Shown: positions 3,024 through 48,147 of the stretch, one piece after another | How the letters are laid out: each line of letters opens with the position of its first letter | Position numbering within the stretch: position 1 is the first letter of the stretch | Assembly (NCBI GenBank): GCA_022828595.1 | Contig: JAKGHH010000005.1 | Span: 22,829,875-22,893,874, forward strand | DNA: 64,000 bases | Source of the DNA: Nelumbo lutea | Taxonomy: Eukaryota; Streptophyta; Magnoliopsida; Proteales; Nelumbonaceae | Direction of reading: 5' to 3' | The notes under the pieces: generated by a model | What the model saw: the letters and a program-made list of their open reading frames with translations, nothing else | Told to the model about the DNA's origin: nothing | Database searches by the model: none | Position numbers and translations under genes: made by a program

Positions 3024-4560
3024 TGGTGGGTGTTGAATCCAACCAAAGATAAAAAGTCTTGCTCGAAGTGAATAATTTGTATATAATGATGAGCAAGGTC
3101 GTCTCCACAGGGATTGGGTGGATTTATTTCCAAGTAAATGAAGTGGGGGTTATAAATATAAGGAAAATAAAATGAAATAAAAAAAAATAATAAAAAGTAA
3201 GGATCAAATCGATGGGAGATAGCTTCCGGTTAAAGGGACAAGTTCAGCTTTGATTCTTATCATTGATCATCGATGCAATGATTAATTCATATGTTATGAA
3301 TAAATTGGTTATAGCCATTAACAAGCTCTAATAGATAGTCTCTACTCGTATTATTCGACAACCAAAATAAGCTCTTTGATTACTTCTCTTATTAATAGAC
3401 AGTCCTAAACAAGCTCTTAGGATTTAATCTATTAATAGCATTAAGAGGGGAGAGACCCAATTCTAGTCAACGATCTCACAAGCTCGGACCGTTTAAACCA
3501 AATCATATATTTCTCTAACATAGATCAAAAACTTTTTTGCAATCAATTTATGTTAGTTGCCACCCTGATTAAACCTACCAATCATATACGAAATTGGAGG
3601 TTCAATCGGCCATAGATTATTCTCATTGAATGAGCAAGAGGCCCTTCTTGCTTAATCAATAAAAATAATCTTCACAGGAAATCACAAAAAACATATGAAT
3701 ACCCATAAACAATGAACTGAAATAAAAATCAATTATATCTCACAATGTTTATAGAATCAAAGCTTCCATAACCCTTCAACCAAAAAATAAAACCTTATAG
3801 ACACTTCATGATGAAATCATAGCTTCTAGATGAGAGGGGGCGAACTCTACTTCTTCCTCCTTGATTGATGATTGCTCTCTTTGAAGGCTGAAGCTCTCTT
3901 GGAGGATTTGATGGTGCCCTTGGGTGCTAGTCTGTCCCCTTTATATAGACTTAGGAGGGAGTTGTCTCCTGCTCCTCTAAGGAGTTCTTTCTCCATTGGG
4001 AGTTCAGTTCTCTAATAAATAATGCCTAGATTAGATCTAATCTACTCATATCTCTTAACTGGTAATCTTAATCTCTTTTATCTTTCTAGAAATACAACAG
4101 AAATTTGAATCTGATAGGACTCTTTGATGATTCTTATTCTTGCATGCTAAATTCGTATTGGGCTTTGTCAACGAATTGGGCCGCTGCAAGGCTTCTCTAT
4201 GAATTGGGCTTCTGCCATGAATTGGGCTTCTCTATGAATTTTCTTAGACTTTGGGCCCGATTTTGACCTCGATGCAGTCCATATCTATCAAAACTCAAAA
4301 CATAAAAGTCATAGAATTTTTCCTTATCTTTCCAATGCATCTTGAATCTTCTCAATAAAAGTCTGGATGAGAGAGTTATGCCCAAATTACCATGCGGCGC
4401 CGAAACTATGCAAAATTACCCGATTAGCCTTGTCTTTCACCTAACGCCTTCTTTCGTGCCCTAAATCGAAATACAAGACTAGTGAGTCCAATTAGGTACT
4501 AAATAAGTATAAAAAACCAAATATTAAGGAATAAAAATATGATAATTTTCATTCTCATCA
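3024..4560 (-). mobile_element. 5' LTR of an Athila/Tat-like Ty3/gypsy element
   Basis: The minus-strand LTR begins TGATGAGAATGAAAATTATC at 4560 and ends about 6 bp before the PBS at 3018, giving about 1.54 kb. The R/U5-like end has the phrase CCCTGTGGAGACGACC (about 3100-3115), common next to Athila-type PBSs. A clear TATATAAAG box is at 3940-3948 (minus). Only one LTR is present, and the internal region is cut down to a PR/linker piece. A 62-codon open stretch inside it (4385-4197) looks like chance. Confidence 0.7.
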
Positions 4561-5530: not shown

Positions 5531-5960
5531 ATCAAGCATATGGTGGGATCAATTGGTGATCAATAGGCGTAGGAATGGAGAGAGGTCAATTCAGTCATGG
5601 GAAGAGATGAAATTGGTAATGCACAAGAGATTTACCTAGCCATTACTATAGAGATCTGCATAGAAAGTTACAAGGGTTGGTTCAAGGTTCTATGACTGTA
5701 GAGGACTATTACAAAGAGATGGAGATAGCCATAATTAGAGCAAACATATAGGAGGACCGAAAAGCAACAATGGCTAGATTTATTGGCGGACTGAACAAGG
5801 AGATTGCTGATGTGGTTGATTTACAACACTATGTGGAGATAGAGGAGCGGTTGCACAAAGCCATTAAAATGGAAATGGTTGAAGCTAATAATGTGATATC
5901 CATAGGGTTTTGGGTGAACCTTCGGCTTAAGTTTTACAAAGTGGTTCAAATAATATAAGG
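5531..5960 (+). pseudogene. Ty3/gypsy gag fragment
   Basis: The plus strand reads [31 protein letters not shown], then after frameshifts DYYKEMEIAMIRAN-like sequence, then an ORF (5770-5958) starting [20 protein letters not shown] and [16 protein letters not shown]. These blocks are the central part of the retrotransposon gag domain in plant Ty3/gypsy elements. The last 20 or so codons of the ORF are not gag but belong to the duplicated AT-rich repeat. A close copy on the minus strand is at 29309-29121. Stops and frameshifts before 5770 make it a pseudogene. Confidence 0.8.
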
Positions 5961-7144
5961 CTTTGAATGGAGAAAACATCTCTATATGGTTATTAGAAGA
6001 CTAGGAGAGTTCATTTGGTATAAGGATGTTTATGTGGCCAATGGGTATTATTTTGAATTTGTTCATTTGGGTTTTTTTGGCACTTATAAGTTTGAGTGAG
6101 TGGATTTATTTTATCAACATATAAAGGGTTCGTTTTAGTTAGAATAGTAAATTTAGACTTGTAATCCGCTTGGTTCTTATTGGTTGAAGCGACTATGTAA
6201 AGTTTTGGCTTTGAGATGTTTTAGGTTGTTTAAATGGGATGTTTGGGATTGATCCAAGTTTATTAGCTTTATTATGAATTGAGATGGTCTCTTTTATACT
6301 TCAAAAGGAATTGAGTTGATTTCCTAGTTTCTCTAGATATGTTGGGTTTGTTTAAGTTAGAATTGCAATAAGCTTGGTTCTTATTGGTTAAAGTGATTAT
6401 GACTTTTTTTCTATGAATTGTTTAAATTTGTTTAGGCAGAATTGTTTGGATTGATAAAGTTTTATTTGTTTTATTTCACTTTGTGTAGGTCTAGTTTTGT
6501 TTTTTAAAAGGAGTTGAGTTGATTTTCAAAATTATCTAAGTATACTAGTTTCATTTAAGTTAGAATAGTGAGTTTAGTGTTCTAATAAGCTTGGTTAGTG
6601 GTTATGGATTTACTTGATACTAGGATGGTTGGCTAGGGTTTGGTTAGTTTTGGATATGTTGTAATTGGTTCCACCTAGGTTTTGTTAGACATAGTTAAAT
6701 GGGATTTAATGGAATGCATTTCATTATCTGGATTGTAAAATCTAGTTTGGATAATCTTGGGTTGTTTGGATTGATTTTAGATACATTTTTCTCTGATGGT
6801 TTTGTTTTGGCAATGTCTCCATAGCTTTGACTGGATTGTAAAATAAATTGGACTACTTGCTAGGCTTCTGTTATGGTGGTTCTTGTAAACCCACCCCCGG
6901 TTCTTGTAGGTCAAACTATTCCTGACCAGCAGTAATAAAACCTTGTGGTTGCTGCATATAGATATATTCAGTAAGATCTCTGTTCAAAAATGCAGTTTTG
7001 ACATCCATTTGCTAAATCTCATAGTCAAAGTGTGCTACTACAGCTAGCAGGAATCCATATGAATTTATGCATGGCCACTAGTGAAAATGTTTTCTCATAA
7101 TCGATTCCATTTTTCTGAGTTTACCCCTTCGCTACAAGACGAGC
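5547..7144 (+). repeat. Arm A of a 1.6 kb inverted duplication (partner 27929-29529)
   Basis: The sequence matches the reverse complement of 27929-29529 along its whole length. This includes the gag remnant, the AT-rich repeat, the junction GTAAACCCACCCCCGG (about 6887-6902) and the copia RT piece. The match stops at about 5547 and 7144 here and at 29529 and 27929 in the partner. Both arms carry the same chimeric gypsy/copia junction, so the chimera predates the duplication. The arms are about 20.8 kb apart. Confidence 0.85.
6890..7144 (-). pseudogene. Ty1/copia reverse transcriptase fragment
   Basis: The minus strand encodes the start of a copia RT: ARLVAKG, a stop, TQKEGIDYEKTFSPM-like sequence, ILLAVAxHxDYEI and MDVKTAFLNRDLTEYIYMQQ. 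The last block is the first catalytic-aspartate motif region of copia RT. It ends abruptly at the junction near 6890. The same fragment, in better context, ends the copia pol at 26350-28170. Confidence 0.8.
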
Positions 7145-7660
7145 AATGAAGGTCAATGTACATCGATCTGAACTATAAGATTTTAATAAAATATACAAAA
7201 CTAAAAATCAGCTACACTACCAAGACTAGAACAGCAACCAAAGACTAAGCAAATTAGCAATAAGAAAGAAAACTACTTATATCAGCAGTGTAGGTTAATG
7301 TATATAGATCTGAACCTAAGAACAAAGAAATTTGAATGCTACCTAAAAAGAAAAGCCTCCTAGAGAATTCTATCAAATCAGAAATCTATCAAAACAAATC
7401 TGAAATCTATAACAGCAACCCATAGAATTCTACCTACAAATCACATATCTGAAGTCTATCAAATCAGAACAATAATCTATAGAATCAAAAAACAATACTC
7501 TACCGAAACAAGAACAGCAACCTAAACTAGAGGCATTTGGCAAGAAGGAAGAAATCATCTACATTAGCAATGTAGGTTAATATATACAAGTTTGAATCAT
7601 AATATACAGAAATAAGAATCAGATTAACAGTAGCTAATTGTTCCTAATATTGCTGAAATA
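7145..7660. repeat. Internal leader of a degenerate LTR element, with short diverged direct repeats
   Basis: No gene. Three diverged copies of a block resembling AGGTTAATGTATATAGATCTGAA start near 7148, 7289 and 7572. The blocks around them (AGAACAGCAACC, AATCTATAGAAT) also recur. In minus orientation the segment lies just inside the PBS at about 7670. Confidence 0.5.
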
Positions 7661-26349: not shown

Positions 26350-28175
26350 AAGAAGGCTGAGTGATGATGAGGTGATCCTTTACCTGGGGACTTCTGCAAC
26401 TGTTGCAGCTATAGCCATAGGAACTATAGATTTAGTTTTCAGAAAAGGCATTTTGAGACTAAAAGATTGTTTTTATGTACCCTCACTAAGAAGAAATTTG
26501 ATTTTAGTTTCAAAGCTTTTCAATGATGGTTATTCTATTCTATTTAGTGATACGATTACTATTAAATTGAATAACAAATTCATTACTTATGGAGAACTTG
26601 AGAATGGTTTCTATGTCATTCGTACTCCTCTAGAAACAAACGTAACCGAAACTACATAAAAAATTATGCCCAAGAACGGAACACGTGATACAGTTAATCC
26701 CACGTGCACGTAGCATTACCGACTTGGCCTTATAAATATAGATTGTATCACAAGATTGGTAAAAGATGGTCCTTTGGATTTTCTAACTGTAGAAGATCTT
26801 CCAACTTGTGAACCTTGCCTTCACGGTAAGATGACGAAACAACCATTTGTAGGAAATCTTGAAAGATCTACAGGCACACTTGACCTAATGCATACTGATG
26901 TATGTGGTCCCATGAATGTTAGGGCACACAACCAGCATTGTTATTTTATAACTTTCACCAATGATTACTCTCGGTATGGTTACATGTACCTAATGAGACA
27001 TAAGTCCGAATCCTTTGAAAAGTTCAACGAGTTCAAACAAGAAGTCGAGAAACAGTTAGGGAGACACATTAAAGCCCTTCGATCAGATTGAGGAGGTGAA
27101 TATCTCTCTGATGAATTCAAAGACTACTTAAAGGACAATGGGATTGTATCACAATTGTCTCCTCCTGCTACACAACAATTAAACAACGTTGGAAAGGAGA
27201 AACCAGACTTTATTAGATATGGTCCGATCACTTCTCGTCCATTTAGAACTACCTATATCCTTTTTGGGTACACATTGAAGATTGTTATATATGTGCTGAA
27301 CCGGGTTCTAACCAAATCCATTCCTAAGACTCCTTATGAGCTATGGACCAGTAAGAAACCAAGTGTGAGACACTTGAAGATTTTGGGTTGTTTGGCACAT
27401 ATTAAAAGAACAAGTGCTGACAAATTGGAATCCAAGACTAGTTGTTGCCTATTTATAAGCTACCCCAAAGGCTCTGTATGATACCTCTTATATGACCCAA
27501 GAGAGCAACAGTGTTTTTGTAGTCGAAATGACTATTTTTTGGAAAAAGATTACATCTTGGACAATCATCGTCAGGAAATTGTTCTTTATGAGGAGAGCTC
27601 AGAAGTAGTGGGAGATGTTCCACAGGTTCGAAATAATACCCAACTTAGAAGATCTACTCGGGTTTCTAGACCTCCGGTTCGTTATGTCTATGATCAAGAA
27701 AGTAACTTGATGGAAGCCACGATTAATAAGGAAAATCTCCTAACTTATGTGGAAGCTATGATGGACATAGATTCCTTGAAGTGGGTAGATGCCATGAGAG
27801 CCAAGATAGACTCAACGGAAACCAATGGAGTCTAGACTCTTGTAGACCCACCCCCTGGGATGAAAGCAATTGGTTATAGATGGATTTACAAGAGGAAGAA
27901 GGGCCCTGATCGGAAGTTTGAGACCTACAAAGCTCGTCTTGTAGCGAAGGGGTAAACTCAGAAAGAGGGAATCGATTATGAGAAAACATTTTCGCCAATG
28001 GCCTTGCATAAATCCATATGGATCCTGCTAGCTGTAGCAACACACTTTGACTATGAGATTTAGCAAATGGATGTTAAAACTGCATTTTTGAACAGAGATC
28101 TTACTGAATATATCTATACGCAACAACCGCAAGGTTTTATTATTGCTAGTTAGGAACAGTTTGACCTACAAGAAC
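26350..28175 (+). pseudogene. Ty1/copia pol (pre-integrase, integrase, start of RT), broken
   Basis: Plus-strand pieces follow copia order. The pre-integrase block has LRLKDCFYVPSLRRNLILVS (26372-26659). Integrase has CEPCLHGKMTKQPF, LDLMHTDVCGPMNV (first catalytic D), YFITFTNDYSRYGY (second-D region) and [16 protein letters not shown] (26756-27150). The integrase core breaks after [15 protein letters not shown], so the expected E region is disrupted. It resumes with [19 protein letters not shown] and the charged tail (27539-27835). RT starts at WIYKRKKGPDRKFETYKARL and reaches MDVKTAFLNRDLTEYIYTQQ (28160). There it joins the gypsy-derived repeat. At least six stops. Gag, PR and most of RT-RNase H are absent. 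Confidence 0.9.
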
Positions 28176-29529
28176 CGGGGGTGGGTTTACAAGAACCACC
28201 ATAACAGAATCCTAGCAAGGAGTAGTCCAATTTATTTTACAATCCAGTCAAAGCTATGAAGACATTGCCAAAACAAAACCATCAGAGAAAAATGTATCTA
28301 AAATCAATCCAAACAACCCAAGATTATCCAAACTAGATTTTACAATCCAGATAATGAAATGCATTCCATTAAATCCCATTTAACTATGTCTAACAAAACC
28401 TAGGTGGAACCAATTACAACATATCCAAAACTAACCAAACCCTAGCCAACCATCCTAGTATCAAGTAAATCCATATCCACTAACCAAGCTTATTAGAACA
28501 CTAAGCTCACTATTCTAACTTAAACGAAACTAGTATACTTAGATAATTTTGAAAATCAACTCAATTCCTTTTAAAAAACAAAACTAGACCTACACAAAGT
28601 GAAATAAAACAAATAAAACTAGATCAATCCAAACAATTCTGCCTAAACAAATTTAAACAATTCATAGAAAAAAAAGTCATAATCACTTTAACCAATAAGA
28701 ACCAAGCTTGTTGCAAATCTAACTTAAACAAACCCAACATATCTAGAGAAACTAGGAAATCAACTCAATTCCTTTTGAAGTATAAAAGAGACCATCTCAA
28801 TTCATAATAAAGCTAATAAACTTGGATCAATCCCAAACATCCCATTTAAACAACCTAAAACATCTCAAAGCCAAAACTTTACATAGTCACTTCAACCAAT
28901 AAGAACCAAGCGGATTACAAGTCTAAATTTACTATTCTAACTAAAACGAACCCTTTATATGTTGATAAAATAAATCCACTCACTCAAACTTATAAGTGCC
29001 AAAAAAGCCCATACGAACAAATTCAAAATAATACCCATTGGCCACATAAACATCCTTATACCAAATGAACTCTCTTAGTCTTCTAATAACCATATAGAGA
29101 TGTTTTCTCCATTCAAAGCCTTATATCATTCGAACCACTTTGTAAAACTTAAGCCGAAGGTTCACCCAAAACCCTATAGATATCACATTATTAGCTTCAA
29201 CCATCTCCATTTTAACGGCTTTGTGCAACCGCTCCTCTATCTCCACATAGTGTTGTAAATCAACCACATCAGCAATCTCCTTGTTCAGGCCGCCAATAAA
29301 TCTAGCCATTGTTGCTTTTCGGTCCTCCTATATGTTTGCTCTAATTATGGCTATCTCCATCTCTTTGTAATAGTCCTCTACAGTCATAGAACCTTGAACC
29401 AACCCTTGTAACTTTCTATGCAGATCTCTATAGTAATGGCTAGGTAAATCTCTTGTGCATTACCAATTTCATCTCTTCCCATGACTGAATTGGCCTTTCT
29501 CCATTCCTACGCCTATTGATCACCAATTG
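27929..29529 (-). repeat. Arm B of the 1.6 kb inverted duplication (partner 5547-7144)
   Basis: Reverse complement of 5547-7144, including the copia RT end, the junction CCGGGGGTGGGTTTAC (28176-28192), the AT-rich repeat and the gag remnant. Left of 27929 the copia pol continues in frame here but not in arm A. Arm B is therefore closer to the source arrangement for the copia side. Confidence 0.85.
29100..29520 (-). pseudogene. Ty3/gypsy gag fragment, inverted copy
   Basis: The minus-strand ORF 29309-29121 starts [20 protein letters not shown] and continues [16 protein letters not shown], differing from the copy at 5770-5958 by only a few residues. Upstream on the minus strand (29520-29310) is the degenerate part with RRRNGER and [13 protein letters not shown] blocks. 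Part of the inverted duplication. Confidence 0.8.
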
Positions 29530-29594
29530 AAGTGTTAATTCTTTTATGGATTATCTAGACAAGGGGTGAATAGGAATTCTATTTTTTGGGCTCA

Positions 29595-29792
29595 ATTGTA
29601 ACTGTTATTGTATTTTGGGTGACTGTTGTGGGGAGTTAAGATATTTTAGCTCCCCTTCCATGTACTCCTTTTTTAATCATTTAATGAAATCTCATTGTAA
29701 CTATTGCTGTATTTTGGGTGACAGTTGTGGGGAGTTAAGATATTTTAACTCCCCTTCCATGTTCTCCTTTTTTAATCATTTAATGAAATCTC
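29595..29792 (+). repeat. Two tandem 99-bp units, each with a hairpin
   Basis: 29595-29693 and 29694-29792 are near-identical direct repeats starting ATTGTAACT and ending AATGAAATCTC. Each contains GGGGAGTTAA...TTAACTCCCC; in the second unit (29729-29754) the 10-bp arms are perfect around a 6-nt loop, and the first has one mismatch. Confidence 0.9.
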
Positions 29793-36461: not shown

Positions 36462-37292
36462 TGATGTAGTGCGATCTGGTCACTCCTACCTGGCTGGGGT
36501 TGCGTTCTTAGCTGGCGACGGATTGGGCACCTGAGAGGAAGAAGATGAAGAGATTCCAGGGGCTATCCCAGTAGGAGCACTCTGATGCTTAAGTTAGAAC
36601 TGAGAAAGAAAGCTGAAAGCAGAGAATAGCAAAATGAGAGCTAAGAGTGGAGATAAGCAATTACCCTTTCCTCGTTGGGGTTGGGGCCCTTATATATATT
36701 GATGTCCTGACAAATTGGGTACAACCGCCACTGATCCTCTGTTGCAGCCGTTATTTTCCAAACTTGAGGAGGCGGGCACAGGTAACCATCACAAAGTATG
36801 GCCCTGTCAGATAAGAGACATTTTGTAGGCACGACACCGCCTGACGAGAGTCGTGGATGCAGTCAGCAGATTCGGCGGGTACGGTTGTTAGGCAGGAAAT
36901 CCTTTTGTGATTCGCTAAGTTGTTCTCGTGTCGAGCTACCTTGTGCCGAGTTACCTTGTGCCGAGCTACCTTTCACCGAGCTAGCTTGCACCGAGTTACT
37001 GGTATTACACCGAGGTGCTTCTACCCGAGGTGGGCTCTTGAGCTCATCTTAGCTTTGGGAACAAGCTTGTCTCGGGATGCCCTCAGCTTAGGATGCCCCT
37101 GACTTAGGAGAACCTCAGTTCGAAGTGTTTGCTTGGAAAAATTGGAGCTCGAAGCTCGGGGCACTCGGAGAAGTGTCTTATAGCCGAGTTGCCACGTCGA
37201 ACCTTATCGGAGTTGTCGTGCCGAGTTGTCACTTATGCCAAGTCATGTCCACGTGTATCCCTATCATGAGGTCGGGCCGAATCACCCTCCAT
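36462..37292 (-). mobile_element. Tat element B 3' LTR
   Basis: The minus strand runs from TGATGGAGGGTGATTCGG at 37292 to ...GCACTACATCA at 36462 (831 bp). The TATA box ATATATATAAGG is at about 36688-36699 (minus). ACTTAAGCATCAGAGTG near 36600 is shared with the LTRs of A and C. 36838-37292 is repeated as the 5' LTR remnant at 47722-48147. It contains several CCGAGCTACCTTG-type 13-17-bp repeats (36935-36990). Confidence 0.88.
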
Positions 37293-37312
37293 CAATTGTC
37301 CCCCACTCCCTG
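37293..37312 (-). other. Polypurine tract of Tat element B
   Basis: On the minus strand GGGAGTGGGGGACAAT immediately precedes the 3' LTR start TGATGG. It sets element orientation independently of pol. Confidence 0.75.
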
Positions 37313-37603
37313 TGCTAGGGGTCTCGACCTAGTGTGGGGAGTTCACGGCGTGATGGGTGGATTCGTCCTGAGGTTCAGGCCACCAAGTCAGATGGTTCGC
37401 CGGTCTAGACCAGTCCGCTACTCGGCTCAATCAAAGATAACCCGGATCACATACAGTTCAAGCGCGGACTTCACGCGATATATAGATTCTGCAAATGCAA
37501 AAAAATGCGCTAAACCAATTTCACCTCGAGGGTCGCACAACTAGTTTTCTTGAGAGCCATTAGATCGTCCTGATCTTGATCGTTGATTTCCAGACATAGC
37601 GGC

Positions 37604-37612
37604 TATAAATAG
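37604..37612 (+). promoter_or_regulatory. TATA box of the antisense gene in Tat B
   Basis: TATAAATAG in the context GGCTATAAATAGGGGGG, about 220 bp before the first ATG on the plus strand and inside the element, outside the LTR. A plausible transcription start would be near 37635. A GT-AG pair at 37734-37830 could be a 5' UTR intron ending just before the ATG at 37833. Confidence 0.65.
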
Positions 37613-37832
37613 GGGGGACCCCCGTCATTTTCTTCGCCATAAGTTGACAAGCTCTTGTCTGGAGGTCGTGGAAAAGCTCTCTAACTTGGGTTCTCTGGTC
37701 TGCCAATTTTCCTAGCTCGGTCTTCTTTCCTTGGTGAGTCTCCTTGTCCTCTCCTTCAGTTTGTTTCTAGTCCTTTTTCTTTCGTAGTTAGCTTCTCAAG
37801 TCTTCTTTAATCCTTTAGTTTGGTTCGTAGCT

Positions 37833-39841
37833 ATGTCAGACCATAGCTTCGACTTCTTAGATGAGCCCGAGGTGGGTACCTCAGTTTACGTAAGCGTCCC
37901 GGAGGCGCATTCCACTTACGAGATGCGGGAAACCTCGGGCAACCCAACGCCTGCCTCTAACCCGGCGTCTGCCTCTAGCCGAGGCAAAATGCCAGATCGG
38001 TTCGGTCCTTCTACCATGAGGTAGACAAGCTCAGGGGCTTGATAGATCGGTACTATCTCCCCAAAGAATATTTCTACAACCTCCTTGTGGGAAACTTCCC
38101 ATGGGAACATGGTCGCGATGAGATTGTGATTATCAGGGAGCAGCTTGTGGTCGGGCTCCATTTTCCTCTACACCCCTTAATCGTTGAAGTATTAAACCAC
38201 TTCGATGTAACCATAGACCAACTCCACTCGAACTCCATTCGGAACGTGGTTGGGACAATCTCCCTCTGTTCTGACTACACCCTCCCACTTGACCTTGATA
38301 TTTTTTCTGCAATCCTGTCCATAAAGAAGAATGCATCTAGCATTCTCCCTGAGCACAGGCGGACTTATTACTTGTCCCCCCACCCGGGCTACAAGCTGCT
38401 ACACAACCTCCCCGACAAAATCTCGACCTGGAAATGGGATTACTTCGTAGTTCAGAACCCTGAGGGGTGGCTCTTCCCTACCCATTGGAGGGTGGCCGTT
38501 CAAGACTCCAGCATTACACTGGACAAGGACATAAGGGAGATACTCCAGTCGTAGGCAGAGCTCTGCTTCGACTACAAGGACTTCATTGCCGAGAAGAAAC
38601 TCATTGAGGTCGGTCTGAGTCCCGGTAATTCGGTTTGTCTTAGAGTTAGCATCTTTAGTAGTCAGTACGTTCTTCTCAGCATCACTGACGCCGAACTCTG
38701 TTGCAGGTCCCATGGAGCGCCTTAGTGTTGAGAAGCTATTCGGGAAGATGAAGAAGAGACAGAAGCGAGCTGCCAAGAGAGCTCATATTGAATCCCCTCC
38801 TACTCTAGTGCCCAAGTAGCCTGCTCAAGCTCCCCCGGTGATCATCTTGGAGGAGTTGAAGGTCCCCCCTCCTCGAGAGCCTGAAACCACTACGGTGCCT
38901 ACAGCCACGAAGCCTGCTACCGTGGAGCCCGCTACTACGGAGCCCACTCCTGAGATGGCCGTTTCCTCGTTGGGGAGCGGAGAGGCCACCCGGAGTGTCC
39001 TGAACCCCAAGAACAACCTCCAAAAGAGCAAGGGGGCTACTTATGCTGATGAGGTCTCTAATTGGGCCGAGCTCACACCTGCTCAGCTCAGAGCTCGAGC
39101 AGCTACCCACTCTATGGTGGTAAGTCTCGTTACTTAAAATTTTGTGATTTATTGCCTTATAGGTGCTAACTGGAATTCCTTTAGCAGGTGAACTCCGCCG
39201 TCCACGCCCTCACTCTTCAATTCGATAGGAACTTGAAGTGAGCTTTAACTGCTGAGGACTCTGCTCGCGAAGCTCATACCAATCTGAAGCTAGCTCGTGG
39301 TCGGATCCACCGTCCGGAGAATGATGCTATCGCTTAGAAAAAATTCATCCAAGTGTTGATGTCGGAGAAGGAGGTGCTACAACGCGTAAGGGAGGGACTT
39401 CTATGCGAGAAAGAGGACTTCCTACATGAGAAGGGAGAGTTGCTGCTTAAAGTGAAGGAGCTCAAGTCAGACAAGGTGACCCTGGAGCGCAAAGTGGAGA
39501 GCCTGTAAGCCGATGTCAAGGAGCGGACTGAAATCCTTGTTGGTGCCTTAGACGAGGCTAAGGCCAAGGCCGTTCAGGATTATGTCCAATCGGAGGAGTT
39601 TGATGCAGTGATGGTGGAAGCCTACCGTAAAGGCTTCAAGCTTAGTTGGTGGTTGATAAAGCACGAATTCCCGCAACTTGATGTGAGCGTGATCACCTCC
39701 TCACAGGTCATGGGAGAGGTAGTCGAACAAGCCACCAAGGACTCGGACTCCAAGCCAGAGGGTGATGATGACGAGGCTACCACCACCGACCAGGTCGGCC
39801 CTTTGGAGGCTCCAAACAAGGGGGGTGCACCCCTTGAATAG
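37833..39841 (+). pseudogene. Antisense extra gene of Tat B (putative gypsy-type transposon protein, PF04195-like), three exons
   Basis: On the strand opposite to pol. ATG at 37833 (MSDHSFDFLDEPEVG); exon 1 to 38624; intron 38625-38706 (GTAATT...TTGCAG); exon 2 38707-39119; intron 39120-39187 (GTAAGT...TAGCAG); exon 3 39188-39841. Splicing keeps frame (SPG|PMER; HSMV|VNS). The central domain has VDKLRGLIDRYYLPKEYFYN, VVGLHFPLHPLIVEVLNHF, PHPGYKL and WKWDYFVVQNPEGWLFPTHW. It resembles the 'putative gypsy type transposon' family, known as an accessory ORF in plant Tat elements. Exon 2 is basic then Pro/Thr-rich, and exon 3 is a charged coiled-coil-like helix ending acidic. Damage: a frameshift near 38005 and stops at 38552, 38817, 39238, 39336 and 39507. 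TGTAATGAAACTTATGTAATGAA (39895) may serve as poly(A) signal. Role unknown. Confidence 0.75.
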
Positions 39842-41268
39842 TCTGTACTGAGCCAACGAGCTCAATTTCCTTCTCTTTTGTACTGAACATATTTTTGTAA
39901 TGAAACTTATGTAATGAAGATACTTTTTGCCAAGTGTTTATGCAATTTACTTTTGCCAAAATGATTGTCTCGCCCCGAGCTCTTAAGTTATCGAGTTAAA
40001 TTCCCGAAGTGGGTGTTCCTTAACTGCTATCACCCCGAACTATCTCCCAATACTTAGTAGGGGTGACGTTATAGGGCACACTGAGGTGAGTGACATAGTA
40101 GGGTATATGCCCGGCTTATCTTCATCTGGGTTAAGTGGACATCGGTTGTCCTTACCGAGTTCAACCTGTGATACGCCAGAGCGGGCTATGCACCATAGGG
40201 TTTATACCCGAGCTGCCTGCGCCTTGGGGATTAAGGTACTTAGCCTATGCCGTTAAGGCAACTAGGTCTTATGTAGTGCCGAGGTCTTCTTGTTAGCTCA
40301 GTGCTTTGGCCTTTAGGCTAGGGGAGCGACTTGTAGTCTGCTCTCCTAGAGTTCGCCCATGCCAAAGAGGCGACTGGCCGATGTCAAGGAGCGGACTGAA
40401 ATCCTTGTTGGTGCCTTAGACGAGGCTAAGGCCAAGGCTGTTCAGGATTATGTCCAATCAGAGGAGTTTGATGCGGTGATGGTGGAAGCCTACCATAAAG
40501 GCTTCAAACTTAGTCGATGGTTGATAAAGCACGGATTCCCGCAACTTAATGTGAGCACGATCACCACCTCGCGGGTCACGGGAGAGGTAGTCGAACTAGC
40601 CACCAAGGACTCGGACTCCAAGCCAGAGGGTGATGATGACGAGGCTACCACCACTGAACAAGTCGGCCCTTCGGAGGCTCCGAACAAGGGGGATGCACCC
40701 CTTGAATAGTTTGTACTGAGCCAGCAAGCTCAATTTTCTTCTCTTTTGTACTGAACATATTTTTGTAATGAAACTTATGTAATGAAGTGTTTTGTTGTTT
40801 TGTAATGAAGATACTTTTTGCCAAGTGTTTGTGCAATTTACTTTTTCCGAAATGATTGTCTCGCCCCGAGCTGTTAAGTTATCGAGTTAAATTCCCAAAG
40901 TGGGCGTTCCTTAACTACTATCACCCCGAACTATCTCCCAACACTTAGTAGGGGTGACGTTATAGGGCACACTGAGGTGAGTGACATAGTAGGGTATATG
41001 CCCGACTTATCTTCATCTGGGTTAAGTGGACATCGGTTGTCCCTACCGAGTTCAACCTATGATACGGCAGGCCGGGCTATGCACCATAGGGTTTATACTC
41101 GAGCTGCCTGCACCTTGGGCATTAAGGTACTTAGCCTATGCCGTTAAGGCGACTAGGTCTTATGTAGTGCCGAGGTCTTCTTGTTAGCTCAGTGCTTTGG
41201 CCTTTAGGCTAGGGGAGCGACTTGTAGTCTGCTCTCCTAGAGTTCATCCATGCCAAAGAGGCGACTGG
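39509..41268 (+). repeat. Tandem duplication, period 868 bp, including the 3' end of the antisense gene
   Basis: Unit 1 is 39509-40376 and unit 2 is 40377-41268. Both start GCCGATGTCAAGGAGCGGAC and run through the acidic gene end (EEFDAVMVEAY, KPEGDDDEATTT, APLE stop), the poly(A)-like region, and the spacer up to CATGCCAAAGAGGCGACTG. The units look very similar; unit 2 has an extra piece of about 23 bp near 40787. The second copy keeps an open frame (40359-40709) without the first exons. Confidence 0.9.
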
Positions 41269-41455
41269 GTCTTATGATGCCGAGGTCTTTCTTTAGCTCA
41301 GCAACTTTGGAACTTAGTCTAGGGGAGAGACTAATAGTCCACTCCTAGAGTTCACCCATGCCAAAGAGGTGACTGGGTCTTATGATGCTGAGGTCTTCTT
41401 TAGCTCGGCAACTAGGCACTTAGGCTAGGAGAGCGACTTGTAGTCCACTCACCTC
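41130..41455 (+). repeat. Tandem repeat of about 110 bp, three units
   Basis: Units start near 41152, 41270 and 41370 with ACT(A/G)GGTCTTATG(TAG)TGC(C/T)GAGGTCTT. Each ends with TAGTC(T/C)(G/A)CTC...AGAGTTCA(C/T)CCATGCCAAAGAGG. A further unit lies at 40260-40370. A related sequence on the other strand follows pol in element C (63760-63950). Confidence 0.8.
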
Positions 41456-41464
41456 GGTGATTAC

Positions 41465-42660
41465 AGGTAATACTGCATTAAATTGACAATATTCTGTACT
41501 CGAGATACTTGTTTCCCTTCCAGGGTTTCAAGCTCATACATTCCTTCCCCGAGCATCCGTCTTACTCGGTAGGGTCCTTCCCAATTTGGCCCGAGCTTAC
41601 CAACACCGGGCTCAGGCACCATAACTTTATGAAGGACCAGGTCTCCGATGCAGAGGTTCCACTTCTTGACCCTGGTGTTATAGTACCGAGCTACTCTCTA
41701 CTAGTACGTCATGGTCCTAATGTATGCAAGGTCCCGTACCTCATCTAGTAGGTTGAGGTTGGTGCATAGCTCGTCTTCATTTGTCTTGTCATCATATGCT
41801 TCTGGACGTAGCATGGGAACCTCGATCTCGGCTGGGATGACTGCCTCGGTTCCATAAGTTAGGTTGAAGTGGGTCTCGCCTGTTGCGATCTTCACCATGG
41901 TTCGATAAGCCATAGTACGTTGGGTAGCTCGTCTGCCCATAATCCCTTAGCTCGGTCAAGGCGTGCCTTCAGCCCACGGAGAATGGCTCTATTTGTGACC
42001 TCCGCTTGGCCGTTTGCTTGAGGGTGCGCCACTGAGGTGAAATTTTGTTGTATTCCTATATCTTTGCACCAGTTCTAGAATTTAATATCCTCAAACTACT
42101 TATCATTGTCTGAGATCAGTACTCGGGGTAGTCCGAAACGGCACACTATGTTCTTCCAGAAGAAGTTCTGCATTTTCTGCACTGTGATTGTTGCGAGAGG
42201 TTCAACCTCCATCCACTTGGTGAAATAATCAACTGCTACCACTAGAAACTTCCTTTGCCCTATCACTGGTGGAAATGGTCCAAGTATATCAATCCCCCAT
42301 TGTGCGAAGGGCCATAGGCTGGTGAGGTACTTTAGGTCGGCGGTAAGCTGATGGTGGATGTTGGCATGCTTCTAACACTTATCACACCTTCTGACGAGCT
42401 CGATTGCATCTACCATAGTTGGCCAATAATACCCCTATTAGAGTGCTTTCTAGGCAAGAGCCCTGCCCCCCATGTGTCCACCGTACAGGCCCTCATGAGT
42501 GTCACGAAGTACGAGTTCAGCCTCAGAAGGTCGCAAGCATCGCAGATAGGGGAGCGTGTAAGATCTTCGGTACAGCCATTCGTCTATCATGACGTATTTG
42601 GCCGCCTGACGCTTTACCCTTCTGGTGGCATTGCGATCCGCAGGGAGGGTCCCGTGTAGC
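41465..42660 (-). pseudogene. Tat B integrase, degenerate
   Basis: The minus strand in several frames contains the integrase parts seen more clearly in element C. The last core segment is 41940-41701 (KIATGETHFNLTYGTEAVIP, NLLDEVRDLAYIRTMTY). The GDLVLHKVMVPEP and GPYRVRRML C-terminal block ends at QNIVNLMQYYL (about 41470). The central DDE region (42330-42030) is broken by stops and frameshifts. It follows the second RNase H, as expected for Tat pol. Confidence 0.8.
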
Positions 42661-43168
42661 AGGAAGCTCGTGAGCGCATCAATCCAGCTTGGGCTCTGCT
42701 TGTACGACAGGAGCGACCTCCTCTACCCCCCCGAGAATGCTAGGCCGAGACAAGTTCTCTATGTACATAGTTCTCATGGTATTATCACTGGTGCTGGCTA
42801 ACAAGGATGGGGTATCGACCTCAGCATTCTCTGATCTCAGAATTTTCTTGATGAAGTGAGACTGAAAGTGGAGTAGAGCTTCTCTTACTGTGGCTAAGTA
42901 GGCGATCATGGTTGGCTCGTGAGCTTCATATTCACCCATGACTTGGTTGACTACGAGCTAAGAATCACTGCAGATGACGATGTGTTTAGCTTTCACTTTG
43001 TTTGCTAGAGCCAACCTGGCTATTAACGCCTCATACTCCGCTTCATTGTTGGATGTCGTGAAATCAAAGCGTAGTGCATACTCTAGTTTCACACCGCTTG
43101 GTCCACATAGAATGATTCCAACTCTGCTGCCCTGTTGGTTAGATGAGACAGCCACGTGAAGGATCTAG
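42661..43168 (-). pseudogene. Tat B archaeal-type RNase H (second RNase H)
   Basis: The ORF 43155-42958 reads SSNQQGSRVGIILCGPSGVK, LEYALRFDFTTSNNEAEYEA, LIARLALANKVKAKHIVICS, DS. After a stop comes VVNQVMGEYEAHEPTMIAYL and HFIKKILRSENAEVDTPSLL (42939-42679). This is the second RNase H found in Tat polyproteins after the ordinary one. The first catalytic aspartate is lost: the motif reads HVAVSSN where element C has HVDGSSN. The NNEAEYEAL glutamate and CSDS aspartate remain. Confidence 0.85.
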
Positions 43169-43768
43169 GGCTCCTCATCCCAGCTCTGGTCCGACCCCAC
43201 TAGGAGAGAAGCTGCACTGGTTGCTTCCTCATGGTGCTCGAGCTCAACCGGCCTGGGAACCTCAGGCTCGTCCGACCTGGAGGCCTCAGATTCGACTGGC
43301 CTGGGGACTTTGGAGCTGAAAGTACATTCCGCGACAAAGTCGGCTAAGGCTTGGGCTTTGATAGGAGTTTGTGGCTTGTATTGGAGGTTGTACTCACTGA
43401 GTTCGATGGCCCACTTCATCAACCTACCAGAGATCTCGAGCTTGAGCAAGACTTGCCTCAGAGGCCTGTTGGTGAGGACGACGATAGTATGAGCTTGGAA
43501 GTACGGATGGAGCTTCCGAGTTGCAATGACTAGTGCATACACCAACTTTTCGATCTCCAGATACCTCATCTTGGCTCCCTGTAATACTTTGATAACATAG
43601 TAGATGGGTCGTTGGACCCGATCTACTTCTCTTATTAGTACCAAGCTGACCACCTCGTCACTTGCAGAGAGGTAAGCTCCAAAACATCACCCTCCTTGGG
43701 TCGGGTTAAGACTGGGATACTGGCGAGGTACTTTTGAGCTCATCGAACATGAGTTGGCACTCTTTGGT
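43169..43768 (-). pseudogene. Tat B RNase H and connection to second RNase H
   Basis: The ORF 43653-43165 has VQRPIYYVIKVLQGAKMRYL, EIEKLVYALVIATRKLHPYF and SGRLMKWAIELSEYNLQYKP, the standard Ty3/gypsy RNase H, then a Pro/Glu-rich tether (ESEASRSDEPEVPRPVEL). A frame break near 43665 separates it from the RT thumb. Matches element C at 61570-62150. Confidence 0.85.
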
Positions 43769-44660
43769 TCATGCAAAGCCTTTGCTTTTATATGCCTTAA
43801 AGAAAGGCAGGTAGTGATCTGCCGGTTTGGACATGAAGCGGCTTAGAGCGGCTATACGACCATTCTGCCTTTGAACCTCCTTCAATTTCTGGCGTGGGCT
43901 CATATCTAGGATAGCCTTAATTTTATCTGGGTTGGCCTCAATACCGTGCCGGCTGATGATGTACCCTTGGAATTTACCTGAGGTTACACCGAAGGCGCAC
44001 TTGTTTGGGTTTAATTTCATGTTAAACTTACGTAAAATTTCAAAAAGAGAATGCAAATCTTTTATTAAGTCACTTGAAAACTGAGTCTTGACGACCATGT
44101 CGTCTACATAACATTCTATTTTCTTGCCGATCAACGGCTTGAACAACTTATTTACAAGTCTTTGGAAAGTAGCCCCAGCATTTTTCAGTCCAAAGGGCAT
44201 AACCTTGTAACAATACAGTTCTAATTCAGTTATAAAAGCTGCTTTTTCTTCGTCGGCTAGGTCCATTCTAATCTGGTTGTAGCCCGAGTAGGCATCCAAG
44301 AAAAGCTACTCATGCCCTGAAGTGATGTCCACCAGGCGGTCAATCTTGGGGAGTGGGAAGCAATCCTTCAGACAAGCTCGGTTCAGGTCAGCATAATCGA
44401 CGCACATGCGCCATTTACCATTGGCCTTCTTTACCAGGACTGGGTTGGCTACCTAGATCGGGTAGTGGACCTCTCTAATAAAGTCTGCTGTGAGGAGCTT
44501 CCCAACCTCCTCGTCAACTGCTTTCCAGCGCTCAGGGGCTAAGTTGCGTTTCTTCTGTCTAATGGGCCTAACTACAGGATCAGTATTTAGCCTGTAAGTT
44601 ATGATGCTAGGGTCTATGCCAGGCATCTCTGCCGCAGACCATGCAAAAACATATAAATTT
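43769..44660 (-). pseudogene. Tat B reverse transcriptase
   Basis: The minus strand from about 44560 has KKRNLAPERWKAVDEEV, then KANGKWRMCVDYADLNRACL and KDCFPLPKIDRLVD. The ORF 44299-43769 then has DAYSGYNQIRMDLADEEKAA, VMPFGLKNAGATFQRLVNKL, and ECYVDDMVVKT with the YVDD catalytic box. It ends with HGIEANPDKIKAILDMSPRQ. Stops at about 44455 and 44310 interrupt the fingers/palm region; the rest is intact. Complete RT by motif content. Confidence 0.9.
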
Positions 44661-44739
44661 TCAAGTAAAAAACTTACCAGTTGAGATCACAGTGGTTCCT
44701 CGATCGAAGCGCCGATCTGGAGTGTCCAAGCTGGGTCCT

Positions 44740-45300
44740 CTGCCGAAGTGGGCATGGAAAGCATCTCTTCAGTAGGTGCAGCTCACTCTTCACATTGTTC
44801 CGCAGGTCGCTCCAGCTCGAGGTCGTCGGCCACCTTGGCTTTTCCTTTGAGGGTGGCGACGTAGCACTTGCGAGACTCAAGCTGATCGCCTCACGCTACC
44901 CCAACTCCAAAGTCTGTGGGGAACTTCATTACCAAATAATAGGTGGAGACCACCGCACGTAGAGCATGGGTGATGGGCCGACCTATTATGGCATTGTATG
45001 AGGAGGGAGTTGCGACCAACAAAAAGTCATGGTTGAGCCTTACTATGCTAGGCCAAGTGCCGACCGCCATAGGTATTGTAATTCTCCCCAAGGGCCTGAA
45101 TTCCTCTCTGCTGAAGCCCACCAAGGGAGTAATTGCGGGCTTGAGGTCGCTCTCTTGGAGCTGAAGCTTGTCGAATGCTTCATTGAGAAGAATGTCCACC
45201 GAGTTGCCGGAGTCGACGAGAACACGCTTGACTTCAAAGTCGTTAATCTTTATTTTCACGACGAGCACGTCATCATGGGGGGACCCCGCGTGCGTCGTCC
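44740..45300 (-). pseudogene. Tat B protease
   Basis: The ORF 45268-44891 has LVVKIKINDFEVKRVLVDSG, NSVDILLNEAFDKL, DFLLVATPSSYNAIIGRPIT and STYYLVMKFPTDFGVGVA. After a stop it continues as GDQLESRKCYVATLKGK. The active-site triad DSG is intact. It is followed by the DPAWTLQIG linker to RT. Confidence 0.88.
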
Positions 45301-45534
45301 TTAGTGAAGAAGATCAGGTCTTCTGTCCTTGGCTGCTTCATGGGGTTCTGCTCTTCTCTCCCGACCTCTCAAGCCCAAGTCTGAACTGCAGCTGAGGTGT
45401 AGCCCGCGACGATCGACCCTCCGACGATTACATGTATGGTGTACCCGCAAGTGAGGCTGCCAAAGAAGCCGTGTAGATGAAGAAGTTCGTTCACGAGTTG
45501 GGAGTAGTTCCGTCCAGCACATCACCCATCCCAT
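45301..45534 (-). pseudogene. Tat B gag-PR spacer remnant
   Basis: The minus strand in a shifted frame gives TIHVIVGGSIVAGYTSAAVQ and EEQNPMKQPRTEDLIFFTKD, the same spacer as in element C (59917-60060). It is cut at 45534, where copia sequence begins, so the body of gag is missing. Confidence 0.7.
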
Positions 45535-45789
45535 TGTTGTGTGACAACAATGGAGCCATTGCTCAGGCTAAGGAGCCATGAGTCCACTCGAAGTCGAAGC
45601 ACATCGAGAGGAAGTACCACGTACTCCGGGAGATTGTTAGTAGAGGGGACGTCCTGATTCAGAAGGTAGCGTCAATGGAAAATGTAGCAGACCCATTGAC
45701 AAAGCCACTATCATAGAACGTGTTTGAGAAACACGTAGAAAGCATGGGACTCTGGCTCGTACCTGATTGGACCTAAGTGCAAGTGGGAG
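45535..45789 (+). pseudogene. Ty1/copia RNase H C-terminus and PPT
   Basis: The plus strand reads LCDNNGAIAQAKEP, HSKSKHIERKYHVLREIVS, RGDVLIQKVASMENVADPLT, KPLS and VFEKHVESMGLW. This is the end of copia RNase H (ADPLTKPL motif) with two stops. GTGCAAGTGGGAGC just before 45790 serves as the polypurine tract. The upstream part of the copia element is absent. Confidence 0.88.
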
Positions 45790-47714
45790 CTGTTAGACAA
45801 TTTTGTATGCCCTTAGCTTCAATCAAGATGTACTTTATGAGTTTATTAATAAAAGTGCATATTTGATTCATGTTCCCTTGGTATGTTTCTGTGTAATACC
45901 CTTAAATTGGACATTTAATGAGACTCGTGCTAGTTTAGAATGTTCACAGCTAGTGGGTCGGTCTGGGGAGACCTATCCTGACAAGGCTGACACTGTGGTG
46001 CCACCAAGTCAGTTGGGGTGGCCTGTCTCAGCTGCCAGGGTGAGACCCTAGGCACATACAGTGTAGGATTAATTGAATCTTTGAACTGGACCAGATTTTC
46101 GGTATTGCCCTGGACCTTGGAGATTGATGGGCAAAACTGGAAAGTTACACCCGACCCCTAGGCTCGATTATGATACTGCATTGGGTGTCGGATTAGGCTG
46201 TCTTTGATGTACCATTCAGTGAGATCCTTAGCGGTGGTCAAAACCTGGGTATGTTGGGACAGTTTGAGAATTCATCTGAGTGGGTGATCATAGTGACAGG
46301 ATCAGTACCTTTGTCGGACAAAGGTAATGATCGGGGATGCACTCTCACTGATGGAAACCAAGACTGCCGGCAGCCGATTTCAATCGTTGAGATTTGTATT
46401 GCAAGATATATTTTATATGAGATATAAAAGTATATATATTATGGTTTCAAAAAGATTTGCAAAAGGTTTTAATTCCCATGATCCATATAAGCAGACAGTG
46501 AAACACTGTTCCTTGCAGCCGAGGGAGAGGTCCTCTCTTGTTAGGCAGTGTGTGATCATTATGGGTTGAGAGGTTAAGTGTAAGATCATTGAGGATAATA
46601 CCTGATGGGCTGATTTTACATCTGCCCACAGTCCCTGGGTGTTACAAGGTGGCTTGGCCCAAGGAACACTTAGGGTAAGTGTTGGGCCCATAGAAGCCCA
46701 TGAGATGGGTTTCAGGGGGTGCATTGTCCATAACAGTGTATTCCGCCACGCCTTGTAACAAAGGCTGGGCTGAACCCATGTGGCTGATGTGTAGATCAAT
46801 GTTTGGGTCCCATGCCATACAAGGAAGCCCAACTAGGCAACAGTTTGGAAGGCTAAGTGAATACATAACCTTAAATGGGCCTTAAGCCCATTTTGAACTG
46901 AGCTAATTTGATTAGTCATTTAAAGGGGCAAATTCTGAGATGGATCAGCTGATAGGATTGGGCCCATACCCTATCCACATAGAGAGTCCAAGATCTAAAT
47001 AAGATTTAGATCTAAAAGCCTCCTAATTAGATTAGGAGATAGCTGATTTGATCTGTAGATAATATAAGGGTTATCCCTTATCACTTAAAGGGACTTCTTA
47101 TCCAAATATGATTTGGATTAGCAACTCCTAATGGGATTAGAAGCTAATCCCTTTAAGATTATAAAAGGAGAAGGGGGTGGCAGCCTTTAGACATGCAACC
47201 AACACACTCTTGTCTTAAGAGCTGAAATCACAAGAAGAGAGAATTATGCAACTGCAAATACTCTCTTGTCGCCTCCTTCCTGCAACCGCCGCCTCCAGTA
47301 GTTCGATCTCCAGTTCTTGGGAGAAATCAAGACTCCATCTTGATACCAATCTTTTGGAGTTGTATTCACAAGTCATCCAGTTGATTTTTGCGATGAGTCA
47401 AGTTCTTTTGGAAGAACATTGCTGATTTTGCTCCACCCTACACTGCGCCATCTTCAGTGGAAGCAGATTTTGGATCCTTCCTTGGGCATGAACACCTCCA
47501 TTGGGAGATATTGCTTCTCCGCACCATGTATAATCCCTCCCTACTCCTTTTGGTTCAGATCTGGTCCAGTTTATGGTTCAAGAATGATCATTGAAAATAT
47601 GATTTTCTAAATAGGGAATTTGATTCCCAGTTGAAGGGAGAGAAAAATTTTTGAAATTCGCCCCCTTATTCCACAATCTTTGGGCGTCCATGTGATGGAT
47701 ATCCCATCCCTTCA
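45790..47714 (+). mobile_element. Ty1/copia 3' LTR (1.9 kb)
   Basis: It starts TGTTAGACAATTTTGTATGC after the PPT and ends …CCCATCCCTTCA at about 47714. A TATAAAAGG box is at 47160-47168. Relatives in this window: 53822-54684 and 55897-57095 (minus) and an older copy at 50345-51135 (plus). 47590-47700 matches the reverse complement of 53835-53945 closely. The exact 3' end is inferred from where the copies stop agreeing. Confidence 0.8.
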
Positions 47715-47721
47715 CGATGCA

Positions 47722-48147
47722 GCCTGATGAGAGTCATGGGTGCAGTTTGTGGATTCAGCGGGTACTGTTGTCCGGTAGGAAATCCTTTTGTGATTCGCTA
47801 AGTTGTTCTCGTGCCGAGCTACCTTGTACCGAGCTACCTTGCACCGAGCTACTGGTATTACACTGAGGTGCTTCTGCCCGAGGTGGGCGCTTGAGCTCGT
47901 CTTAACTTTGGGAATGAGCTTGTCCTGGGGTGCCCTCAACTCGGGACGCCCCTGACTTAGGAGAATCTCAGTTCGGAGTGTTTGCTTGGAAGAATCAGAG
48001 CTCGAAGCTCGGGGCACTCAGAGAAGTGTCTTATAGCTGAGCTGCCACGTTGGACCTTAGCGGAGTTGTCGTGCCGAGTTGTCACTTAGGCCAAGTCACG
48101 TCCACGTGTCTCCCTATCATGAGGTCGGGCCAAATCACCCTCCATCA
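47722..48147 (-). mobile_element. Tat element B 5' LTR remnant (U3 half)
   Basis: The minus strand starts TGATGGAGGGTGATTTGG at 48147 and parallels 36838-37292 of the 3' LTR to 47722 (GATTCGCTAAGTTGTTCTCG; CCGAGCTACCTTG repeats). It then stops at the copia LTR, so R/U5, PBS and gag are lost. The right flank, GAAAG, pairs with GAAAA at 36457-36461. Confidence 0.88.

Follow-up and report, generated by a model that had tools for sequence, protein, structure and literature searches.

The window, a stretch of 64,000 nucleotides of Nelumbo lutea DNA, contains a Tat-type element on the minus strand (pol on the minus strand) that runs from LTR to LTR at 36830–48147, and the opposite strand of this element carries what looks like a complete gene, with a promoter and introns of its own. 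Is this antisense unit a real gene, has the element kept it for its protein, and what kind of product might it encode? The first-pass annotation had described the unit as a separately promoted, spliced protein gene and as an under-described system.

Judged by its domain and its place, the gene type is already known: Retand/Tat elements carry it as their antisense TRP28 ORF. A 2025 survey reports that antisense TRP28 (PF04195) ORFs are missing from only two of 63 clusters of recently active Retand elements (present in 97%), assigns them no function but predicts DNA binding, and states that it did not find similarity to the TRP28 domain outside elements (Vicient 2025, PMC11963269). An earlier review relates that gene23 of the maize element Grande is transcribed from its own promoter and encodes a nuclear protein (Gomez-Orte 2013, as cited there); it names dsRNA as a possible role of antisense transcription and calls for antisense transcripts, and spliced ones, to be sought (Vicient and Casacuberta 2020, PMC7264820). 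The unit is less under-described than the first-pass annotation had held.

Layout and state of the copy in the window

The antisense unit lies on the plus strand between pol and the 3ʹ LTR. The RNase H domain was found by Pfam on the minus strand within 43168–43686, and the position of the integrase relative to the antisense gene was taken as the first-pass annotation had placed it. The placement of the element in Tat/Retand, which we treat as provisional, rests on the same annotation and on the TRP28 gene. The features of the unit and the adjoining LTR are as follows.

36830–37294, minus strand: 3ʹ LTR; its partner is the 5ʹ LTR at 47713–48147 (387 identical positions in 465 columns, 30 gaps)
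37557–37566, plus strand: promoter-proximal motif CCATTAGATC, 46 bases 5ʹ of the TATA box
37603–37612, plus strand: CTATAAATAG, read at base level, which is the antisense TATA box
37734–37735, plus strand: GT of the leader 5ʹ splice site GGTGAGT, a candidate alternative donor
37833–37835, plus strand: first start codon, ATG1; MSDHSFDFLDEPEVGTS resembles, by eye, the N-terminus MSSSESLDSLLGEPEVGTS of protein model P0001
37833–38624, plus strand: coding part of exon 1, broken in translation
38126–38323, plus strand: PF04195 (Transposase_28/TRP28) domain; hmmscan E = 2.9e-8, residues 50–115 of window:37979–38551
38625–38706, plus strand: intron 1, 82 nt, phase 1, GT..AG
38707–39119, plus strand: exon 2, with an in-frame ATG at 38712 and a basic NLS-like stretch KMKKRQKRAAKR
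39120–39187, plus strand: intron 2, 68 nt, phase 0, GT..AG
39188–39841, plus strand: exon 3, with a helical stalk, a conserved GFKL.-W motif, an acidic tail and the terminal TAG at 39839–39841
39899–39918, plus strand: poly(A)-type signals, AATGAA at 39899 and 39913

Several parts of the earlier description could be followed to the base. The TATA box that had been claimed at 37604 is present, the two coding introns have GT–AG ends with exact junctions at 38624/38707 and 39119/39188, and the poly(A)-like end corresponds to the two AATGAA strings 3ʹ of the terminal TAG. The conserved LHFPLHPL-type domain, for which a profile check had been suggested, proved to be PF04195, which scored 34.2 bits where the cut-off is 26.2.

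The copy of the antisense gene in the window is a dead, decayed member. An ATG-started gene had been proposed, and the ATG at 37833 does exist, but it does not share the reading frame of the domain: in the window translation its frame ends at a stop at 38022, and the different frame that encodes PF04195 ends at a stop at 38552. Exon 2 is interrupted by a stop at 38817, and exon 3 contains internal stops at 39239, 39335, and 39506 ahead of the final TAG. The window translation, with stops in every exon, contained no intact ORF across the unit. A tandem duplication (39509–40377 and 40377–41268, 92% identical) spans the end of exon 3, the stop, the AATGAA region, and downstream sequence.

A neighbouring related element, which extends past the right edge of the window, has the same antisense gene (L049:2134–4203, minus strand), with its TATA box at 4203, its intron-1 donor near 3280, and its intron-2 donor near 2780. 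This gene shares the TATA box, the leader donor, the introns, and the exon-2 ATG with the copy under study, and its intron-2 acceptor is altered.

Conservation of the promoter, the leader, and the splice sites

A PF04195 search of the genome (843.7 Mb) returned 150 scored matches, all above the cut-off, among 7024 first-look candidates. We took 5-kb stretches around 40 of these 150 loci (ranks 1–41 without rank 3) from the same genome, and added one region that was chosen by position rather than score, namely the antisense gene copy of the neighbouring element. The main alignment comprised the window and its 21 nearest loci (22 sequences), and the remaining 19 loci, which are more distant, were aligned separately in groups of 9 and 10. 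The compared copies are kin, and the counts below are not independent. The best match of the window copy to the fetched copies was about 71–73% over 622–851 aligned bases; because no sampled copy was closer than this, statements on the family of the window element itself are extrapolations.

The splice sites of both coding introns recurred at homologous places in the 22 sequences. The intron-1 donor was GT in 19 sequences, deleted in 2, and AT in 1, and the acceptor was AG in 21, in one of which (L028) it adjoined a deletion. For intron 2, the donor was GT in 19/22, and the acceptor was AG in 18, AA in 3, and deleted in 1. The interiors of the introns were far more variable, with a mean dinucleotide identity of 0.60 and 0.53 in introns 1 and 2, respectively, and gaps of 30 bases or less in 70 close pairs amounted to 18.8 per kb in introns, compared to 2.1, 5.4, and 12.6 per kb in exons 1, 2, and 3. 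The structure of the distant loci was followed as far as acceptor 1, and intron 2 was traced in the near copies. The donor-1 GT was retained in 18 of the 19 distant loci; acceptor 1 could be aligned in 17 of them and was, by eye, a clear AG in only 9.

The TATA box was similarly conserved. A single majority base was present in each column in 86–100% of sequences over 37604–37612, and in 90–100% of 20–21 sequences over 37604–37610; among the 19 distant loci the box was visible in many and absent from some. A YCRTYRGATY-like motif preceded a TATA-like string by 44–47 bases in 23 of 42 sequences, compared to a mean of 0.23 and a largest value of 2 in shuffled sequences, figures to be read with the knowledge that the pattern was drawn up after inspection of the sequences and that the copies are related. 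In the window it had a single match, upstream of the antisense TATA box, with 1.67 expected by chance. An autoregulatory site recurring in the LTR was ruled out by this sole position; the motif at 37557–37566 might be bound by the encoded protein or by a host factor. Judged from the sequence, the conserved TATA box and the upstream motif together point to an own promoter of the kind described for Grande gene23.

The first-pass annotation had further proposed a 5ʹ UTR intron at 37734–37830. Both the TATA box and the leader donor were detected by pattern in 26 of 41 sequences, with the donor 116–165 bases 3ʹ of the TATA box in 24 of these 26, and its GT was kept in 21 of the 22 aligned sequences. 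In the window, a leader intron of 97 bases is feasible, with GT and AG ends and a pyrimidine-rich acceptor ahead of the ATG. In 23 of the 26 sequences, however, the next ATG was situated 20–46 bases past the leader GT, a distance below the sizes known for plant introns; the exceptions were the window (99 bases), L045 (74 bases), and L035 (none within 150 bases). A leader intron conserved across the family was rejected, as there was no room for it before the next ATG in these 23 sequences, and the leader site is better read, at least outside the window, as a putative donor that pairs with a different acceptor. The leaders themselves were poor in ATGs: from 30 bases past the TATA box to the donor, 26 leaders held 12 ATGs, compared to 36.6 ± 5.9 in mononucleotide shuffles, none of which (0/500) was as low. 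This fits, as far as leader composition can tell, scanning from the capped end of an own transcript. At the other end of the gene, 15 of the 22 aligned sequences had AATGAA 3ʹ of the stop region.

The comparison across copies argues that the antisense unit is real and beyond chance, since the splice dinucleotides, the TATA box, the leader donor, and AATGAA recur in relatives while the intron interiors diverge. What appears new with respect to the known gene type is the conservation of the exons and, outside the window, a leader donor that leaves no room for a leader intron before the next ATG.

Selection on the protein and its predicted anatomy

Pooled pN/pS was calculated from 8 hand-picked representatives, with 95% codon-bootstrap ranges. 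The value in the gene frame was 0.364 (0.314–0.421) for exon 1, where the choice of loci by PF04195 score biases the core towards conservation and lowers pN/pS, and 0.673 (0.598–0.759) and 0.594 (0.518–0.664) for exons 2 and 3, which are nearly clear of this bias since the near and distant groups were likewise formed by exon-1 similarity. The other two same-strand frames gave 0.93–1.43. Median dN/dS over all pairs of the 22 sequences (140–184 of 231 pairs computable in the true frame) was 0.14 in the PF04195 core, with 1.08 and 2.19 in the control frames, 0.41 in exon 2 (controls 0.82 and 1.00), and 0.33 in the final part of exon 3 (controls 1.05 and 1.08); the weakest contrast was in the first part of exon 3 (0.60 versus 0.72 and 0.98).

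The sense-strand frame with common third positions mirrored the selection signal, with a pN/pS of 0.47 in exon 1, because of these shared third positions. As a selected ORF it was rejected: it held 90 stops in 1696 exon-1 codons, compared to 11 in 1698 in the gene frame. The codon statistics thus indicate that the antisense protein is under purifying selection in all three exons, and the neutral codon evolution against which the first-pass annotation had suggested a dN/dS check is contradicted. This selection is evidence that a protein, not RNA alone, was kept.

The first homology search returned one protein, Nelumbo nucifera LOC104610243, which was 63% identical. The N. nucifera protein records are labelled PREDICTED and may not rest on reads, a reservation that applies to the following junctions. 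Intron 1 was removed in all three models that contain both of its sides (P0001, P0002, and P0003), with P0001 in a shifted frame. Intron 2 was removed in four of five models (P0008, P0009, P0010, and P0011), and P0003 retains it as 18 extra residues at that point. P0006, an unnamed record of 92 residues, continues past donor 1, which counts against splicing. P0008 begins at the exon-2 ATG; the start of P0009 and P0010 is a Met further downstream. P0007, a prediction of an N. nucifera LRR receptor kinase, holds an exon-2-like piece, as if it had absorbed an element insertion; it was rejected as support for acceptor 1, as its upstream residues resemble intron 1.

Conserved promoter and splice sites, purifying selection, and the junctions of the N. 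nucifera models lend good support, for the family as a whole, to the proposed antisense protein gene with its own promoter and splicing; for the window copy as an intact gene, the proposal fails.

As to the product, the basic stretch KMKKRQKRAAKR in the exon-2 translation is suggestive of a nuclear protein. The helical tail that had been described was in the claimed place, and AlphaFold2 modelled residues 110–250 of the homologue P0009 as one helix (103 residues with pLDDT of at least 90; mean 65.7). For the PF04195 part, AlphaFold2 gave no usable model from four sequences (mean pLDDT 40.8). Among solved structures, a profile search with A1 returned no match at E up to 1, and the best single-sequence match had an E of 0.53. 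A C-terminal motif of the GFKL.RW.I..-YP.LD type, at about 39610–39710 in the window, was recognisable in distant families and matched no Pfam family above the cut-off. Pfam matches of the coiled-coil type (MAD, SlyX, and NET2A) were weak and all below the cut-off, and there was no bZIP family among the Pfam matches of six proteins at E up to 0.1.

One protein or two, and other readings of the locus

We consider it likely that the locus is the decayed remnant of a genuine accessory gene that Tat/Retand Ty3/gypsy elements carry, with its own promoter, three exons, selection at the protein level, and a nuclear role. Our best bet for the product is a nuclear coiled-coil accessory protein, possibly with long and short forms. 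RNA polymerase II would produce a capped, spliced, and polyadenylated mRNA independently of the LTR. The long protein would contain the N-terminal PF04195 domain, the basic nuclear-localisation-like stretch, a helical stalk of about 140 residues, the C-terminal motif, and the acidic tail; the stalk would probably dimerise, and the protein may act in the nucleus on the transcription or integration of its own element, through its DNA or RNA. The introns would survive replication because the element copies itself via sense RNA, in which the reverse-complemented introns cannot be spliced. Ogre elements are related to Tat. Partial splicing is known in Ogre, a plant Ty3/gypsy element, too (PMC6317226).

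The lotus gene is like the Retand TRP28 ORF, as the 2025 survey describes it, in its antisense orientation, its place between pol and the 3ʹ LTR, its PF04195 domain, and the tandem repeats nearby, and the Smc/mitotic-checkpoint matches that the survey gives for some Retand antisense ORFs are echoed by the weak MAD, SlyX, and NET2A matches here (PMC11963269). The survey relied on an ORF finder; "intron" is absent from its main text and "splic" appears only in reference titles, whereas the lotus gene has three exons, a conserved leader donor, a recurrent poly(A)-type signal, and measured selection. Lotus belongs to the Proteales, an order not in the survey's list of those with recently active elements (PMC11963269). 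A search by title and the start of abstracts, which covered few subscription journals and is weak evidence of absence, returned no paper on introns of the antisense TRP28 gene. Grande gene23, by the review's description, is likewise an antisense accessory gene at an equivalent place with its own upstream promoter (PMC7264820). ORF-finder surveys may split one spliced gene into separate ORFs, and the exact exon borders given here make the spliced antisense gene testable in lotus RNA data.

Another resemblance is to HBZ of HTLV-1, also an antisense gene of a retroelement, which encodes a nuclear protein of the bZIP type in spliced and unspliced forms with different N-termini (PMC10186651). Unlike the lotus unit, HBZ has its promoter in the 3ʹ LTR (PMC10186651); we draw an analogy only and claim no sequence relation. 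In the lotus gene, the leader donor might sometimes join the intron-1 acceptor, which lies 620–972 bases beyond it and is a consistent partner, and so skip exon 1; translation from the exon-2 ATG might then yield a short protein without PF04195, which may oppose the long form or act together with it. An in-frame ATG from the sixth base of exon 2 was present in 19/22 near copies, and an ATG near the exon-2 start was seen by eye in 15 of 17 alignable distant loci. We put forward only tentatively, and with more doubt than confidence, this plant counterpart of the HBZ pair: two nuclear proteins from one promoter and two donors for one acceptor, the short form, reduced to the basic stretch, coiled coil, and acidic tail, competing with or partnering the long one. 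Such a switch, if true, would provide a concrete hypothesis for the regulation of the gene.

The closest competitor to two forms is that the gene encodes a single protein, with the leader GGTGAGT as a transcription-boosting U1 site or a relic and the exon-2 Met as an ordinary residue, a reading that we see as evenly balanced between right and wrong. As the exon-2 ATG lies in the reading frame that continues from exon 1, constraint on the long protein could have preserved it, and it is one of 12 among 112 exon-2 codons that reach 90% identity, but the residues right after this Met differ among families, and P0008 has its start there. The leader donor holds its position though an intron before the next ATG is unfit in 23/26 sequences, but acceptor 1 is not clearly its best partner in most copies scanned: in the 20 of the 22 aligned copies that the scan took in, acceptor 1 was unmatched by any other pyrimidine-rich YAG in 6 and equalled or beaten in most others. 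Taken together, a single protein appears likelier than two forms by a modest margin.

It seems improbable to us that the antisense RNA itself plays the main role, pairing with the 3ʹ portion of the genomic RNA in host silencing or self-damping, with the ORF incidental. The unit is indeed antisense to that part of the element RNA, and the review raises a dsRNA role as possible (PMC7264820), but pairing does not account for codon-level selection in the gene frame of all three exons, and conserved splice sites are not required for it. A captured host gene, still spliced and without use to the element, would explain the complete host-style structure, but the same structure and frame-specific selection recur in divergent families of one genome, and the survey has the domain in 97% of clusters with no similarity outside elements (PMC11963269); we give such a capture very little credence, and the recurrence with frame-specific selection largely refutes it. 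Chance GT, AG, TATA, and AATGAA strings in decayed DNA, which the window copy by itself, frameshifted and with stops in every exon, might suggest, are refuted by the copies compared here, which have these sites at homologous positions and show frame-specific selection, and we regard that explanation as negligible.

Elsewhere in the window, an inverted repeat has arms at 5549–7154 and 27922–29530, about 21–22 kb apart, in which segments of 862 and 454 nt are 98% identical and others 90–94%. Window positions 29595–29792 consist of two tandem copies of 99 nt that are 94% identical.
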